Positions 10,781 to 41,265 of a DNA stretch of 64,000 nt are shown in pieces. A program made the translations under genes and the position numbers. The stretch is from Synechococcus sp. PCC 7335. GTDB lineage: Bacteria; Cyanobacteriota; Cyanobacteriia; Phormidesmidales; Phormidesmidaceae. The notes under the pieces were generated by a model. The model worked only from the letters and a program-made list of their open reading frames with translations, did not search any database and was not told the origin of the DNA. The DNA lies in the NCBI RefSeq assembly GCF_000155595.1, contig NZ_DS989907.1, forward strand, positions 1-64,000. Direction: 5' to 3'. Position 1 is the stretch's first letter; each line of letters opens with the position of its first letter.

Positions 10781-11059
10781 TCACTCCTCGGGCGGTAAAC
10801 CAAAGGCGTCTGTCAAGGCCGAGATGATAACATCAGTCATCGAGCGACGGTTGCGTTTGGCTTCAGCAGCCCAGTGGTTACGGTAAGACTCAGGCACTTT
10901 AGCACCTACGTTCACCATCCTTTCTTGCTTTACTTTTTTCTGGTTTTCTGGTTTTGATTTCTTATGGTTTTCCAGCTTTACTTCGAGTTCTGGCTCTGTT
11001 GATTGTCTAGCTTTATTAAGGATTGCTCCATACTTACTCTGGTTTTGATTTTCACTCAC
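10781..11059 (-). CDS. RHH partition partner (ParB-like) of ParA
   Basis: A 92-residue protein. It has a charged, lysine-rich N-terminal tail and a C-terminal ribbon-helix-helix region from about residue 49: 'VNVGAKVPESYRNHWAAEAK' then 'RRSMTDVIISALTDAFGLP'. Its ATG overlaps the parA stop by four bases. Small RHH proteins paired with ParA (as in ParG or Omega systems) bind the centromere and repress their own promoter. The repeat-rich DNA upstream of parA is the likely binding site. Confidence 0.75.
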   Translation of the reverse strand: MSENQNQSKYGAILNKARQSTEPELEVKLENHKKSKPENQKKVKQERMVNVGAKVPESYRNHWAAEAKRNRRSMTDVIISALTDAFGLPPEE

Positions 11060-11649
11060 TTCAATAGCTCCATTACTTCTTCGCCCAGCTTTTCATAGTC
11101 GATCCAACCCATCCGATCGCCGCCCGTGAGGTCACGAACAGGCTTCCCGGCTAGAGCTGCTTTGCTAAAGCCAATACTCCGACGAATCATTGTATTGAAT
11201 ACTGGCACACCAGCTTCTTGTAGCTCTGTGCGCATCGTTTCGCCGTCTCGGTTCGGCTTCGGCGGTACGATAGCAATGAGGGTGCGGTAGTTCGCGTCAC
11301 CTAAGTCATTGGCGGTCTGCATCATCGGTTCAAGTGAGACGACATCGGGTAGGGTTGGCAATATCAATAAGTCGCATCCTTCAGCCAGTTCTTTTAGATC
11401 TGATGAGTCGGGGCGAGCAGGCGTATCAATGACAGCGTAGTCGTAGTTCGCGATAATTTTCATCGCTTTACGCTCGTCCACAACATCGAAGGGTAACTGA
11501 CCTCTTTCACTCCATGCGATCGCCGTTCTATTGGGGTCGCCATCAATCAGCAGTACTTTGCCCTGATTACTGAGATAGGTCGCCAAGTGGATGGCGGTGG
11601 TCGATTTGGTCACGCCGCCTTTATAGCTAGTGACTGTGATGAGTTTCAT
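11056..11649 (-). CDS. parA: ParA-type partition ATPase
   Basis: A 197-residue ParA/MinD-family ATPase without an N-terminal DNA-binding extension (type Ib size). The deviant Walker A is 'SYKGGVTKSTTAIHLA' at residues 8-23, with a signature lysine (KGG) and the normal lysine before ST. 'LLIDGDPN' near 34 and 'YAVIDTPA' near 72 give the A' and Walker B motifs. It drives plasmid segregation with the RHH partner, with which it forms a coupled operon. Confidence 0.92.
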   Translation of the reverse strand: MKLITVTSYKGGVTKSTTAIHLATYLSNQGKVLLIDGDPNRTAIAWSERGQLPFDVVDERKAMKIIANYDYAVIDTPARPDSSDLKELAEGCDLLILPTLPDVVSLEPMMQTANDLGDANYRTLIAIVPPKPNRDGETMRTELQEAGVPVFNTMIRRSIGFSKAALAGKPVRDLTGGDRMGWIDYEKLGEEVMELLK

Positions 11650-32394: not shown

Positions 32395-32784
32395 GACATT
32401 AAGGTGCTTCCAACAGACACAAGCTAGTCTATTTATAGTCAAAAGCCATATAGTTGGAAATTGCACAAATTTTCATTGGAGAAGCTAAATTCGTACATAT
32501 TTCACTGAGCTTGGTGTAAAAATGAACTGTTAAACAGTAATGTTTGATAGGAAAAAGGTTTTGAAGTGCATATTTCATAGGAAGTTGCGTAATTTCCAAC
32601 AAAAAGTTGTCAATTGAAACTCTCAATGTTTTATAAAATTTAACAATTTTAGATTTTGTGCCATATTGGAGACGTTTTGTTGCGTTGTACCTATCAGCGT
32701 TTGTCTCTCGAAGGACAAGTAGCAATATCAGTTCCTAGTGCTTTGCCTTCATCAAATTTCAAGAGAGTCTGAGAGAAAGACGTG
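32395..32784. other. AT-rich gap upstream of the RTX gene
   Basis: About 390 bp, strongly AT-rich, probably the promoter region of the RTX gene. A reverse-strand open frame (32429-32725) lacks convincing coding character. Nothing else is seen. Confidence 0.4.
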
Positions 32785-35576: not shown

Positions 35577-38500
35577 TCATAGCCTATATAAGGCTAACAA
35601 ACTCCGGTAGATAGGTGGTGGTGAAGTAGTTTTCGGTGAGGGTGTATGGCTTATTTTGATCCTAGAACAGGCATCCATTTTGTTCACGTCACCCAGATTA
35701 GAAAGGTAATCATTATTCCAATAAGCGTGACGCCGCCTGATGGCTGAAAGCGCTTTAGAAACGGCGGTTTCGGTATCTCTATCTACCCATGCCAGCGCTT
35801 TCTTAATGATTTGATGCTTGGCTGCTGTGTTAACTGCAGTTCTAGTCTGCGCCCGAATAATTTTTAGCTCTGCTTGGAACTGCTGTAGGGGAGTAGGCTG
35901 TTTAGCCTTTAAGCTCTCCCGCCGCGCCAGCACATCGCCAATCACTTCTAGCCGATAAAGGTTAAGCCTTGCGCCACTACCTTCCCTGGTGTCTTTGATC
36001 GGCTTGTGCCCGACCAGCTCCAGGGCTTTGTTAAATAACGCCGCCGGGGCCATTTGATTGGAAAACTTAGCGCCCCGCGTCAGTCCGACTCGTTTGGTAT
36101 TTGCCGCAATTTGCTTTGCATGAGCGATCAAATAAAGTCCTGCGGCGATTACTTGCGGATGTTGGTTTGTCCACTGCACTAGCTCACCCTTAATTACCTT
36201 AGCCACACCTGGACAACGCGAAATGAGACTAACTAGCTCAATATCAGTGGCTGGTGCGGGAAGTTCTGGAAAATGCCAGAACTCTGTGCTATCTAGTTCT
36301 GGTCTCCCCGCTAGGAATTGGATTGCTTTCATTCGTTCTATTTGGTCAAAACAGGCTGGATCGTGAAGTGCGATATCTAGGAGCTGCGAGCGGACCACAG
36401 AGCGTATTCCTGGATTGCTGGCAGTTTTATCTGCGGCCCAGGCAGTAAAAAACTGGCTGTCCTGCTGTGAAAGAAACTGCTTGCCCAGTCGCTGCTCCAT
36501 GTGAAGCTTGGTCGCCCTTGCTGCTTGGAAAGGATTGTTGATCTCATCAATCACTGTTTCCGAAGCTCTAGTTTGAGTTTTTTTTAAAGTTCGTCCGCGC
36601 TGCTCAATCAGCCCAATCCTAATGTTATCGCTCAACACTTTTAGAGCGTCTAACTGCTTTTGTTGTTGTTGATCTGGCAAGGGTACTGGCGAAATGCGCC
36701 AGCCGTAGCACTGCCAATTTTCATGCAGTAACTTTCGCTTAAAAATGATCTCAAACGCTTTGAGTGCCAAAAAGTGCGGTAAGTTAGGTCGCATCGCTGT
36801 AAACTTTTCAGCCTCCCGCTGCATTGGCTTTAGCGCTTTCTCAGCGCCTAGTGCTTTAGCTAGCGCAGCCGCTGCACCCATCGGTGCCTTCGCTTCATTC
36901 GCTAGTTCATCTGCCCAATACTGCCAGCTCAGCGCATCAGGATAAGCTTCGAGCGTAGGGGCACCCCGTTGACTGAAATAGATGTGCCGCTCCTTGATCG
37001 CCCCATCGCGGCCAATGGCCGATCTGATTCGTTCCCCTCGCTGGCTGATGCTTTGGGCTCCTTCATGAGGTGTGGCATATTCAAATTGGATATCGAAATG
37101 CTGTCCTTCGATGCTCACACCGCTATTGATGACAGGAGTAAAGATAAACCAATCGGGCCTTTCTTCGCTTAGGAAAGTATCGGGATCGGACAAAAATTTC
37201 GAGCGCTGATTTTGCAAAGTGGCCGCGCCATCGATGGCTAGCCCAGTTTTATCTGGGAACTTAGCCCGCAAGACTCGATCAATAGCGCGGCCCTTCCCCC
37301 GACTGCCGGACGGAATAGCAACTCGTTGCCCACGCTCTAGTGCTTCAATGATTTTTTGTAGCCACTGGTAGTAGTTGCCATACTCAAAAATAGTCATCTC
37401 CGTAGCGGGTCTGCTGCGCCGCTGTAGATGCGTATCAGTTGGAGTAAAGCCGCCGATAGTTTGCGTGGCCGCAAGTGTCCAGCCGCTCATGGTAGCGGTG
37501 GCGATCGCTACTCGTGGTACCGAGGCAAGTAGCTGTCTGAATGCTGCTAAACTTTGTGGTCCCGCGTTGCCTAGTTCTGCCGACTCAATCCGATGTAGAA
37601 CTTCATTGGCTTCATCAATCTGGATCAAGTCAAAGCGCTGCCCTTTGAACTTGTAAGCTGATTCAGGGCAGCTGACCACAATCGCGGCACTGTAGTAGCT
37701 GGCATCTAAGTGAGTAGCCGCTATATCCCTGCCTGCTCGCTGATTGATGCGATGCTTGAATTCTTTCGCCAGTCCTCGTGTCGGTACGAAAATCAGCACC
37801 CGGCCACCGCTCTTAGCAACCTGTAACGCAGGCGGAATCAACGCCCGGTTAGATTTCCCTGTTCCCTGCGAGCAATCGTAAGCCACCAGCGACCGCCCGT
37901 CTGCTGGTGGCTGTATTTCTTCAGCGAAGCCGCTGATTAGCTCAGTATGAGTTTCATACTTGAGCAACTGCTTTAGTGATCGATAAAACTGCTCACGCGC
38001 TCGGTTTTTGTAGTCAGGGGCATCAGTATTGATATCTGCTTCGATACCGAGCAACTGAGCAATTCTGGCGTATGCATGGCGATCTCGTTCAACGCGCTGT
38101 TGTCGCTTCCACTCTGCTTGACTCTGTTGCCGCTTCGCTTCCTTTCTAGCGAAGCTTTCGCTAGAAAGCGGCGTCTTGGCAGTGAAAGCTGTCCAGGAGA
38201 TGAGCGCCGATTGCTCGAACTGTTCTGGGGTGATATCATCAACATCACCATCAGCTTTCGTGGTTTGGCCCCACCATCTGACTAAGAACTGGTAGCCTAA
38301 TCCCTCCACTATTTCAGCGAGGGCATTGTACTGACGCATCACTAGAGGGTTGCTGACTGCGCCGCCATCTGGGTTGAGCACCAGCATCTGAACGCCTAGC
38401 GCTTGGCACATCGCTTTTAGCTGCGCCGATGAACTAGCAAAGTTCCCACCTGCCGCACCGATAAATGCTTGACCCGTTCTTTCAGCCGCGATTATTGGCT

Positions 38501-39212
38501 TGAGGATACCTTCAGCAACATTGATAACTGTCCGATCACCATCAGCGAACGTCAGTGGTAGTTCACCATTTCGCAGGTTCGTTGGACGACCAGGAGTCGA
38601 GAGCCAAGGATAGCGAGGAACATCATCACTGCTCGTATCGCGGTTGCGAATCTGGAAGCCTAGAATACGCCCTTGAATATCTTTGGCGGGAACTAGATAG
38701 CCTGTATAGGGAGAGAGTAACTTAGTGCCATTCTCCCCTACCGCTGGGGTGTTCGGATGAACCGGGTTACGTAGGCGGTGCCAGGGCGTAATGCTTTTGA
38801 AAGCGGCGATTGTATTAGTAGAAAGTCCCCGGCGTTCTAAGTCGGCTCTATCCTCAGCATGTAACGACAGTTGAGTGAGAATCTGCCGATAGGCGATATT
38901 GCGCTCGTCAATGCTGAGCCCAGCTCGATAGTGTTCCTTAAGTGCATTCTCTTCAGCGGCTCGGCGGGCGCGACGCTCGGCAAGTTCCGCTTCACTAAGC
39001 TGAGTAGCGGTGATATCAGGCGTGAATGTGGCCCACTGCGAGCCCGCTTTGATGCATTTATAGCCAGCGATAACCTCAAACAGCTTTGCATCCCCATAGG
39101 TCATGCAAAGGACAAATTCCTGATCGCCGTCTGTTTTGGTGCTGCACTTGCCGCTGGTGTTATCACAGATCGGACAAGGATTATTCCGTTTGGTTGGCCG
39201 CAACTTTGTCAT
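35577..39212 (-). CDS. CyRepA1-family plasmid replication protein
   Basis: 1211 residues. N-terminal zinc motif 'CPICDNTSGKC', then a Toprim-like DUF3854 region (about 160-310; 'INVAEGILKPIIAAERTGQA', 'VLNPDGGAVSNP'). A superfamily 2 helicase-like ATPase follows: Walker A 'CSQGTGKSNRALIPP' near 450, 'LIQIDEANEVLHR' near 533, 'AIATATMSGWT', and 'QSISQRGERIR' near 727. This order (zinc, primase-like, helicase) is that of the large cyanobacterial plasmid initiators. It marks the replicon as plasmid-borne. A 43-residue leader overlaps its start codon by four bases. Confidence 0.85.
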   Translation of the reverse strand: MTKLRPTKRNNPCPICDNTSGKCSTKTDGDQEFVLCMTYGDAKLFEVIAGYKCIKAGSQWATFTPDITATQLSEAELAERRARRAAEENALKEHYRAGLSIDERNIAYRQILTQLSLHAEDRADLERRGLSTNTIAAFKSITPWHRLRNPVHPNTPAVGENGTKLLSPYTGYLVPAKDIQGRILGFQIRNRDTSSDDVPRYPWLSTPGRPTNLRNGELPLTFADGDRTVINVAEGILKPIIAAERTGQAFIGAAGGNFASSSAQLKAMCQALGVQMLVLNPDGGAVSNPLVMRQYNALAEIVEGLGYQFLVRWWGQTTKADGDVDDITPEQFEQSALISWTAFTAKTPLSSESFARKEAKRQQSQAEWKRQQRVERDRHAYARIAQLLGIEADINTDAPDYKNRAREQFYRSLKQLLKYETHTELISGFAEEIQPPADGRSLVAYDCSQGTGKSNRALIPPALQVAKSGGRVLIFVPTRGLAKEFKHRINQRAGRDIAATHLDASYYSAAIVVSCPESAYKFKGQRFDLIQIDEANEVLHRIESAELGNAGPQSLAAFRQLLASVPRVAIATATMSGWTLAATQTIGGFTPTDTHLQRRSRPATEMTIFEYGNYYQWLQKIIEALERGQRVAIPSGSRGKGRAIDRVLRAKFPDKTGLAIDGAATLQNQRSKFLSDPDTFLSEERPDWFIFTPVINSGVSIEGQHFDIQFEYATPHEGAQSISQRGERIRSAIGRDGAIKERHIYFSQRGAPTLEAYPDALSWQYWADELANEAKAPMGAAAALAKALGAEKALKPMQREAEKFTAMRPNLPHFLALKAFEIIFKRKLLHENWQCYGWRISPVPLPDQQQQKQLDALKVLSDNIRIGLIEQRGRTLKKTQTRASETVIDEINNPFQAARATKLHMEQRLGKQFLSQQDSQFFTAWAADKTASNPGIRSVVRSQLLDIALHDPACFDQIERMKAIQFLAGRPELDSTEFWHFPELPAPATDIELVSLISRCPGVAKVIKGELVQWTNQHPQVIAAGLYLIAHAKQIAANTKRVGLTRGAKFSNQMAPAALFNKALELVGHKPIKDTREGSGARLNLYRLEVIGDVLARRESLKAKQPTPLQQFQAELKIIRAQTRTAVNTAAKHQIIKKALAWVDRDTETAVSKALSAIRRRHAYWNNDYLSNLGDVNKMDACSRIKISHTPSPKTTSPPPIYRSLLALYRL

Positions 39213-39340
39213 GCTGCAACCTTCTGCTCTGATGCAAAGGGTTTAGCAATGACACGGCTATTGTGTCCTTGAAGGCACAGTCGCTCGGGTCTTAGTGACG
39301 GATAGTTCGCAACCGTGCGCGGAACTTCATATTTTTTCAT
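39209..39340 (-). CDS. 43-residue leader peptide coupled to rep
   Basis: ATG at 39340; the peptide begins MKKYEVPRTVANYPSLRPER and ends 'SEQKVAA'. Its stop TGA overlaps the rep ATG as ATGA (39212-39209). Rep has a modest AAGG site inside the leader's last codons, so rep translation probably depends on leader translation. The leader's own start lies right after a hairpin that covers its RBS. Similar logic controls copy number in several plasmids with leader peptides. Confidence 0.6.
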   Translation of the reverse strand: MKKYEVPRTVANYPSLRPERLCLQGHNSRVIAKPFASEQKVAA

Positions 39341-39342
39341 CT

Positions 39343-39375
39343 CTATCTCTCGGTAGGGTGAAGCGAGAGAGATAG
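39343..39375 (-). promoter_or_regulatory. RBS-masking hairpin upstream of the rep leader
   Basis: On the mRNA strand CTATCTCTCTCG pairs with CGAGAGATAG (two-base bulge), and the AUG follows two bases later. The only purine-rich RBS candidate, GAGAGATAGAG, is inside the 3' arm. Opening the stem would be needed for translation of the leader and thus of rep. Confidence 0.55.
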
Positions 39376-39799
39376 GCTGCTGTCGGTACTTTCAGAAATG
39401 CGATCGCGCTATACGACCAAATTCTTTCGCGACAATTAGCAAAATCGGATATTTGCTGCTAATATAAACGCAGTACAAAACGTGACTTAAAACAGCGGCC
39501 AAGCAATTTCAAGTCAACCTATCTCAAATGAGTTGAAGCCCTAGATGTTCGTACCATCTGGGGTTTCGTAATGTTAGGGCGGTTTTAGATCATGAAGGCT
39601 GCTCCTAGCGATATGAAGATGGAAGTATTGTATAGTATCTCTGTACAATACTCGGAAGCGACTCGACTGAGAACAACGAAAGCGTGTTTGACGTTGATAG
39701 TGCAACATTTTATACCGTCTCTTAGTAGGGGTAACTGCAAATCCTTTGATCCTGGTTAGGAAGCAGAGCCTTTTCGACCCTATATCTCGTAGGTGTTTA
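39376..39799. other. Rep upstream region, possible promoter or origin
   Basis: No gene. It holds a HIP1-like site, an AT-rich patch near 39430-39480 and a hairpin CCCTAGATG/CATCTGGGG at about 39540-39567. A plausible place for the rep promoter or origin, but no iteron set was seen. Confidence 0.35.
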
Positions 39800-40051
39800 T
39801 TATTCGCAGGGTAATGTTTTTGTTTTGGATGGAAAATCTGTGAGTGCATAGTCGTCGTTAGTAGCACAATGAGCTGGTAATGAGCGCCGGTAAAGAGATT
39901 GCACTCCCTCACTAAGCATCGAGATAGCCCTTTGATCATTAGCAGTTAAATGGTGAATGGGAAAGTGATCCCCTTCGTAGTGACGCACATGTAAAACATA
40001 GTGGCAGTTACTCCCTTCACTGGGAATTACTTGTTCAACTGTTCTTTGTGG
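39800..40051 (-). pseudogene. 3' part of a gene split by the IsrB element
   Basis: Reads RTVEQVIPSEGSNCHYVLHV, then 'RHYEGDHFPIHHLTANDQRA' and ends at 39800. It has no start. The missing 5' part lies at 41491-41647 beyond the IsrB element. Joining the two restores one frame (...CYQIPQRTVEQ...). Confidence 0.6.
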
Positions 40052-40131
40052 GATTCTCCCACCTAAACGAGGTGGGAGAAGGATAGCGGGGCGGCGATGA
40101 TGCGCCTAGCATCCCTAAGCCGCCCAATCTT

Positions 40132-41265
40132 CTACGCTACGCATAATCCGTTAGACCTCCTTAGTAACTTTGTTTTGCCAACTAAAAATTGCCCGATGCG
40201 CTTCCACTGCCAATCGTAGATAGAAACGACTTTATTGGGTTCGCTGTAGCCGCCGATATAGCCAGTTACAGCCGCTTTCCCTTTTGTAGATGAGACAAAA
40301 TCGCCAATCCTGAATAGCCAAGGTGTGACAGTACCGCCTTTGCGTTTGCGAACATCACCTTTGGCTGGAACCTCAAAATGGAGCTGACGACGATAAAACC
40401 CGTATTGCTTACCTCGCTTGACTGCGCCGAACCGAGTGATAATTTTGAAAACTGATGGCGTTATGCCAACGCTGCCGAAACAAGATTTACCATCTTCTTT
40501 GAACCGATGACATGACTTGAATTTGACAAAATAACTTGATGCTATAGCAACGCCGTCAACAGAATGAGTCTCAGGTTCCGCGTGGGATTTGTTTGTTTTA
40601 TCTTTCTCAAGTCCTAGAAATTTTCGGATTTGAGAAGTTCCGTTGCCGTCTTTCTGCCATCCTTTTATTTGGTAAACAGGCGCTAACTTACTCATTTGTT
40701 CGATAGCCCAGTCTTGACCGACTTGGACAGGACTAAAGTTGCACCCTTTTTTAGTTCTAGCTGCTACCCGCTCATAACCAATGGCAACAATCGGGAAGAG
40801 TTTCGATAGCTCAGTAATGACCCGTAACTCAAGTTGTCTAGCAGCTCTAATGCTAGGCGGAAGTTTATTACCGCGCCGATTGTCAAAGCGCTTTTGACGG
40901 TGCGACCGCTGAGCAAACGGAATAGAACGATCTATCCGTCGTCCTCTACGACCTCTACGCAACAATCGGCGCTGATCCATTCTGGCTCTAACACGATTAA
41001 ACGGTAGAACCAGATGGCCTCTAAACAGCGTATGTTTGCCCGACTGAACACCAACGCCTGAATATGATTTACCAGGATCTACACCCGCCACAATAGGCTG
41101 AGTAGCGTCACCTGATGGTTCTGCAACTAGCTTGATATACCACACACCTAGATCTGACCATTGACCTATCGCTTTACCGTCTCGCACCATTCGACGCGCA
41201 CGGCTCGCCTTGGTCGGCATTAATGGCTTGTCGTTATTATCGACTACAGGAACTCGACTGTTCAT
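40132..41265 (-). CDS. isrB: IsrB, HNH-less IscB relative
   Basis: 377 residues. The N-terminal PLMP domain ('VPVVDNNDKPLMPTKASRAR') is followed by RuvC-I 'AGVDPGKSYSGVGV' with Asp near 63, the Arg-rich bridge helix (RRLLRRGRRGRR), RuvC-II 'IVAIGYERV' with Glu near 162, and RuvC-III 'HSVDGVAIASS' near 236. No HNH domain (no CxxC plus DHxxP) lies between RuvC-II and III, which separates IsrB from IscB. IsrB proteins nick DNA under guidance of a long RNA made from sequence upstream of the gene. All key RuvC residues are present. Confidence 0.85.
   Translation of the reverse strand: MNSRVPVVDNNDKPLMPTKASRARRMVRDGKAIGQWSDLGVWYIKLVAEPSGDATQPIVAGVDPGKSYSGVGVQSGKHTLFRGHLVLPFNRVRARMDQRRLLRRGRRGRRIDRSIPFAQRSHRQKRFDNRRGNKLPPSIRAARQLELRVITELSKLFPIVAIGYERVAARTKKGCNFSPVQVGQDWAIEQMSKLAPVYQIKGWQKDGNGTSQIRKFLGLEKDKTNKSHAEPETHSVDGVAIASSYFVKFKSCHRFKEDGKSCFGSVGITPSVFKIITRFGAVKRGKQYGFYRRQLHFEVPAKGDVRKRKGGTVTPWLFRIGDFVSSTKGKAAVTGYIGGYSEPNKVVSIYDWQWKRIGQFLVGKTKLLRRSNGLCVA

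Follow-up and report, generated by a model that had tools for sequence, protein, structure and literature searches.

The locus examined here raises the question of how a plasmid of Synechococcus sp. PCC 7335 sets the output of its replication gene, and whether a 43-codon frame that runs into the start of this gene takes part in that control. Little is understood of how cyanobacterial plasmids control their replication, and a copy-number handle is needed for CyRepA-based vectors. We analyzed the initial 64 kb (hereafter the window) of a contig of 156,025 bp, in which the following features surround the start of the replication gene, termed rep:

35577..39212, minus strand: rep gene, 1211 aa, CyRepA1-like, recognized by profile and homology matches, with its start set by the alignment of relatives
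39209..39340, minus strand: leader frame of 43 codons with an ATG start, MKKYEVPRTVANYPSLRPERLCLQGHNSRVIAKPFASEQKVAA, from the open-frame list and its translation
39209..39212, minus strand: ATGA, in which the leader stop lies on the rep start; the same overlap is found in L004, L005, L035, L034 and L038
39343..39375, minus strand: leader-start hairpin (arms 39367-39375 and 39343-39351, loop 39352-39366), from sequence and folding
39408..39435, minus strand: TTGTCG-16-TATAGC, a weak pair of promoter-like boxes ahead of the leader, found by eye and under the scanner threshold

The rep product combines an N-terminal zinc-finger/DUF3854-type part with a DEAD helicase part. The NCBIfam CyRepA1 model (NF042913) matches the helicase part only, with 106 bits against a cut-off of 200, and since this score lies under the curated cut-off the gene is called CyRepA1-like. 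The N-terminal third is matched by plasmid-borne cyanobacterial proteins, some of them annotated as CyRepA1. At position 39212 the predicted N-terminus (MTKLRPTKRNNPCPIC) aligns with that of relatives (MSKFTPTNRSNDCPVC) residue 1 on residue 1, with agreement from M1 onward, and the window rep has no alternative in-frame start; the start is therefore firm. A ParA-like frame at 11056-11649, judged from its N-terminal sequence only, fits a plasmid. Two more CyRepA1-like helicase genes are located on other contigs of the same genome (L040 on G000:C5 and L039 on G000:C6), and several such replicons therefore coexist; no coupled frame was seen at the candidate starts of L039. A search of viral contigs and genome contigs for related reps by peptide patterns returned none.

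The initial annotation had described a 43-residue frame overlapping the rep start by ATGA, and this frame is present exactly as described. It had also placed the ribosome site of the leader inside a stem. The stem itself is confirmed, with nine perfect pairs (CTATCTCTC / GAGAGATAG) closing a 15-nt loop and ending 2 nt before the leader AUG, at a folding energy of -12.1 kcal/mol (z about -2), but the element it buries is GAGAGA, a purine-rich and weak site rather than a strong Shine-Dalgarno sequence. Each box of the promoter-like pair carries 4/6 matches, and the region has no match in Rfam. Neither the 43-aa peptide nor its DNA had a homologue in the same genome, the genus or the plasmids searched. 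A coupled frame of at least 43 codons arises in 4-6% of dinucleotide shuffles of the window rep upstream region, so that the window alone proves little and is suggestive only.

A stronger fold, missed in the earlier note, covers the rep start at 39170-39260. Its energy is -28.4 kcal/mol compared to -18.5 kcal/mol in shuffled sequences (z -3.3, 1/200). The elements concerned are:

39197..39258, minus strand: rep-start structure, the most stable fold (z -3.3)
39196..39221, minus strand: alternative rep-start hairpin GGUUGCAGC-AUGACAAA-GUUGCGGCC, -13.8 kcal/mol by folding
39220..39223, minus strand: Shine-Dalgarno-like AAGG of rep, within the last leader codons

In the most stable predicted fold, the rep Shine-Dalgarno sequence and AUG are paired with leader codons about 28-43. 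The alternative hairpin has nine pairs with the rep AUG within its loop, a form like that of helix 3 in the Pseudanabaena-type plasmids described below. The unpaired probability of the rep AUG in the ensemble is 0.07 (11th percentile of the 44 window genes); the accessibility of the rep start, at the 9th and 11th percentiles among these genes, is low but not extreme.

We consider it somewhat better than an even bet (probability about 0.57) that the 43-codon frame is a translation-coupling leader that throttles Rep output and thereby plasmid copy number. The rep Shine-Dalgarno sequence and AUG would be folded with the last leader codons, or alternatively with rep codons 3-6, so that ribosomes could not begin at rep directly. 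A ribosome reaching the ATGA stop of the leader would open the fold and either free the rep start or restart there. The stem located 2 nt before the leader AUG would limit how often ribosomes enter the leader, and Rep output would thereby be throttled at translation. The passage of the ribosome would matter, and the peptide sequence would not. Translation of the leader, a dependence of rep on this translation and an effect on copy number are all inferred here. If this proposal is true, introducing one stop codon into the leader, or altering a stem there, should tune copy number.

The overlap was then compared among reps of the same genus, which are 64-69% identical to the window rep over matched parts and come from three other genomes. 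An upstream frame ends exactly at ATGA or GTGA in all five same-genus reps with readable starts, with lengths of 91 (L004), 133 (L005), 136 (L035), 93 (L034) and 60 codons (L038) and per-locus shuffle probabilities of 0.01, 0.0025, 0.005, 0.0005 and 0.032, respectively. The rep N-terminus of L034 and L038 is of another kind, yet these two keep the overlap as well. In L038, a stem inside the leader end contains the rep Shine-Dalgarno sequence. The frames of L005 and L035 are homologues of each other and show purifying selection (dN 0.40, dS 0.94). The window frame resembles none of those of L004, L005 and L035. The coupled peptides of the genus are thus mostly unrelated in sequence while the overlap persists, which makes the overlap, and not the peptide, the constant feature. 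Long near-perfect hairpins were also observed in or near the leaders of L038 and L034 (CTCTACCAGATTTG..CAAATTTGGTAGAG; CTATCAAAGGC-TTTT-GCCTTTGATAG).

In a class-wide search we collected 91 rep N-termini with their upstream DNA, forming 37 clusters at 60% identity, and scored as coupled any frame with its stop at +1 or +4 relative to the rep start. With a minimum length of 40 codons, coupled frames are present in a fraction of 0.42 of the 37 clusters, compared to 0.078 in shuffled sequences (sd 0.038, maximum 0.185 of 200), and with a minimum of 20 codons in 0.52 compared to 0.19 in shuffled upstreams. About half of the clusters lack a +1/+4 frame of at least 20 codons, and the overlap is therefore frequent rather than universal. 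For the rep ribosome site and the early codons of rep, the pairing value is 8.0, versus 6.97 when downstream sequences are swapped between clusters (sd 0.38; 1/120). The excess over a synonymous-recoding control is modest (7.8 versus 6.6 pairs), because the FTPT-type N-terminus itself gives C-rich codons, and the swap test was used for this reason; the excess over the swapped controls is real but modest. The recurring overlap, often accompanied by a hairpin at the start site, suggests on sequence grounds that these plasmids may limit replication through leader-dependent translation of Rep. Seven copies look chromosomal. Six of them, on megabase contigs (L132, L134, L136, L138, L140 and L141), showed no convincing coupled frame, their starts being uncertain (no start could be called for L136, and the sole frame in L138 begins at a TTG and is 28 codons long), and the seventh, L142, has an ambiguous low-complexity frame; the contrast with the plasmid copies is small.

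The clearest case is provided by 22 distinct Pseudanabaena-type reps that have one layout in common. Here a stem (CCTGATTG/CAATCAGG) lies 9 nt before the leader ATG, with the AGGA of the leader at its 3' arm. The leader contains a variable stem and has 26 codons in most members, 27 in two that end in ATGA, and 20 and 30 in two with indels. At the rep start, the ribosome-site GGAGGTC pairs with rep codons 2-4, and the TAATG overlap is placed in the loop. Across the alignment of the three stems, 85% of cells are paired, compared to 35-46% when the partners are slid, and 11 double-changed pairs were counted versus 5.7 in shuffles (0/500); nine of them belong to the stem within the leader, and each of the two outer stems contributes one. 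Compensatory changes, proposed at the outset as a check, are thus found in plasmids with the layout described for the window. The two layouts are analogous, and homology of their stems is not claimed. The inner leader stem is strongly covarying and fast-changing (L100-L118 and L123-L127). We considered this stem as an incompatibility determinant and found the idea unsupported: similarity is higher among co-resident copies (0.70) than among the rest (0.58), and the inner stem is identical in two Pseudanabaena-type copies of one genome.

The overlap itself, its above-chance recurrence in relatives, the predicted structures and the covarying Pseudanabaena-type versions are observed. Lack of conservation of the leader frame or stem had been named at the outset as a refuting result, and here the outcome is divided: relatives keep the overlap, but neither the window peptide nor its first stem is conserved. 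The idea that the leader controls rep accordingly gains from the five of five relatives, the enrichment in the family and the covarying three-stem version, and loses from the unconserved peptide and first stem of the window.

The best of the competing explanations, although unlikely, is an ordinary operon overlap, in which the 43-codon frame would be a small protein gene, or a remnant of one, with no special control role. Overlaps of the ATGA type are frequent between neighbouring bacterial genes, and some clades encode a genuine small protein in the frame upstream of rep. Purifying selection is seen in L005/L035 (as above), in L063/L071 (dN 0.52, dS 1.40) and in L088/L094 (dN 0.51, dS 1.07), and the conserved coupled frames often encode small zinc-ribbon-like proteins. 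However, the window peptide matches no conserved small protein compared, and frames of 22-62 codons with unrelated sequences recur at the coupled position. Such coupling is present in only 2/45 large frames of the window (start sites guessed), and the rep-start structures exceed the swapped controls.

A small protein with CxxC-like pairs (zinc-ribbon-like) often precedes rep, namely in L063, L071, L081, L088, L093, L094, L004, L070, L075, L128 and L145. Unrelated families of these frames share the coupled position, and they are possibly accessory replication or copy-control proteins.

Leader-coupled control of rep genes is known from enterobacterial plasmids. In R1/IncFII, the rep ribosome site is masked, and translation of a short leader is therefore needed for translation of rep; the leader peptide arrangement tap-repA, acting with CopA RNA, was reportedly described by Blomberg in 1992. 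The IncB, IncI (ColIb-P9 repY-repZ) and IncL/M plasmids use a pseudoknot-dependent coupling, in which leader translation opens a structure over rep. The window has, like these systems, a short frame that ends on the rep start, which is itself predicted to be masked. It differs from R1/IncFII in that its Rep is unrelated, the start/stop geometry and structures are different, and an antisense RNA (CopA) is known in R1. The IncI-type pseudoknot loop motif UUGGCG is absent from the window region. General models of translational coupling invoke RNA unfolding or reinitiation (reviewed in PMC12548453). The close or overlapping stop and start of such systems is like that of the window, where a structured downstream start is predicted and the principle would be applied to the control of a cyanobacterial plasmid rep. 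We found no description of leader-coupled rep control for CyRepA-type plasmids in the open literature searched. If the proposal is true, leader-coupled control extends to Rep proteins that have no relation to those of enterobacterial plasmids.

The initial annotation had stated that nothing comparable was described for CyRepA1 plasmids. This needs correction with respect to pSYSA of Synechocystis 6803, in which copy number is controlled by ssr7036 and the antisense RNA asRNA1, and the prototype CyRepA1 is encoded by slr7037 (PMC9978351), and it holds with respect to translational coupling, which that paper does not mention, favoring a ColE1-like priming instead. The similarity to the window consists of a small upstream gene before a CyRepA-type rep. 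The differences are that pSYSA has two small frames rather than one, and that an antisense RNA is demonstrated in pSYSA only; the 43-aa peptide has no match to Ssr7036 in a plasmid collection that includes pSYSA. According to its annotation, which may be incomplete, 163 nt separate ssr7036 and slr7037. We found that an unannotated 55-codon frame (L129; pSYSA NC_005230, about 32481-32649) fills this gap. Its TTG start lies on the ssr7036 stop (TTGA) with GGGGGT before it, and its end forms TAATG on the slr7037 ATG. L130, which is 86% identical to pSYSA, retains ssr7036 and both overlaps, TTGA (here preceded by GGAGGT) and TAATG, and the middle peptide has changed. Homology of this middle frame between the two plasmids is weak; the overlaps alone are clearly kept.

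These comparisons bear on a second alternative, still less likely than an operon overlap, in which the upstream transcript is mainly an antisense-regulated replication primer, a model put forward for pSYSA, with only an incidental role for the small frame. In pSYSA, asRNA1 and cleavage by RNase E have been mapped, and an ssr7036 RNA whose codon 2 was a stop nevertheless increased copy number when supplied in trans, by 2.75-fold and 3.2-fold in two constructs (PMC9978351). In our reading, this trans effect fits titration of asRNA1, if asRNA1 blocks leader translation, and is therefore compatible with leader control. The overlapping frames from ssr7036 to rep kept in pSYSA and L130 are unneeded by a primer model, and an antisense promoter is not evident in the window. 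The least likely account, that the window frame is an untranslated product of chance and the stem either has no function or serves another one, for example as an operator or pause site, draws on the shuffle frequency of 4-6%, the weak leader Shine-Dalgarno sequence and the lack of a close homologue, and runs against the longer frames that end in exactly this overlap in all five relatives from the genus.

Extending translation coupling from the window, we tentatively propose, at somewhat less than even odds, that CyRepA-type plasmids including pSYSA share leader-frame coupling. Peptides would turn over while selection retained the overlap and a stem that masks the rep start, and asRNA1 would act by blocking leader translation in a CopA-like manner, and not, or not only, through ColE1-like primer control. 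If true, the published pSYSA data gain a different, testable mechanism.

An antisense RNA acting on the leader had also been suggested for the window. The plus strand within the leader has no promoter above the scanner threshold, and one weak candidate terminator was found:

39306..39338, plus strand: hairpin (39306-39323) and T run resembling a terminator, facing the start of the leader on the other strand

With one such hairpin found versus 0.7 expected from shuffles, this is not significant, and the suggestion receives no support in the window; by analogy with pSYSA, an antisense RNA acting on the window leader is possible.

Additional elements were observed upstream of rep. No iteron-like direct repeats were found in 38900-40140. 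Two near-perfect inverted repeats are located at 39624-39652 and 40054-40080, and an RRXRR/IscB-like protein (Pfam PF14239; the IscB model is below its cut-off) is encoded further upstream at 40132-41265 on the minus strand. Two reps without the ATGA overlap, L014 and L016, have a common upstream element, TCAAA..GTGCAAGA.CCTTG..AATT..CCC..GCTGCTGCATGG, which is possibly another type of rep leader.
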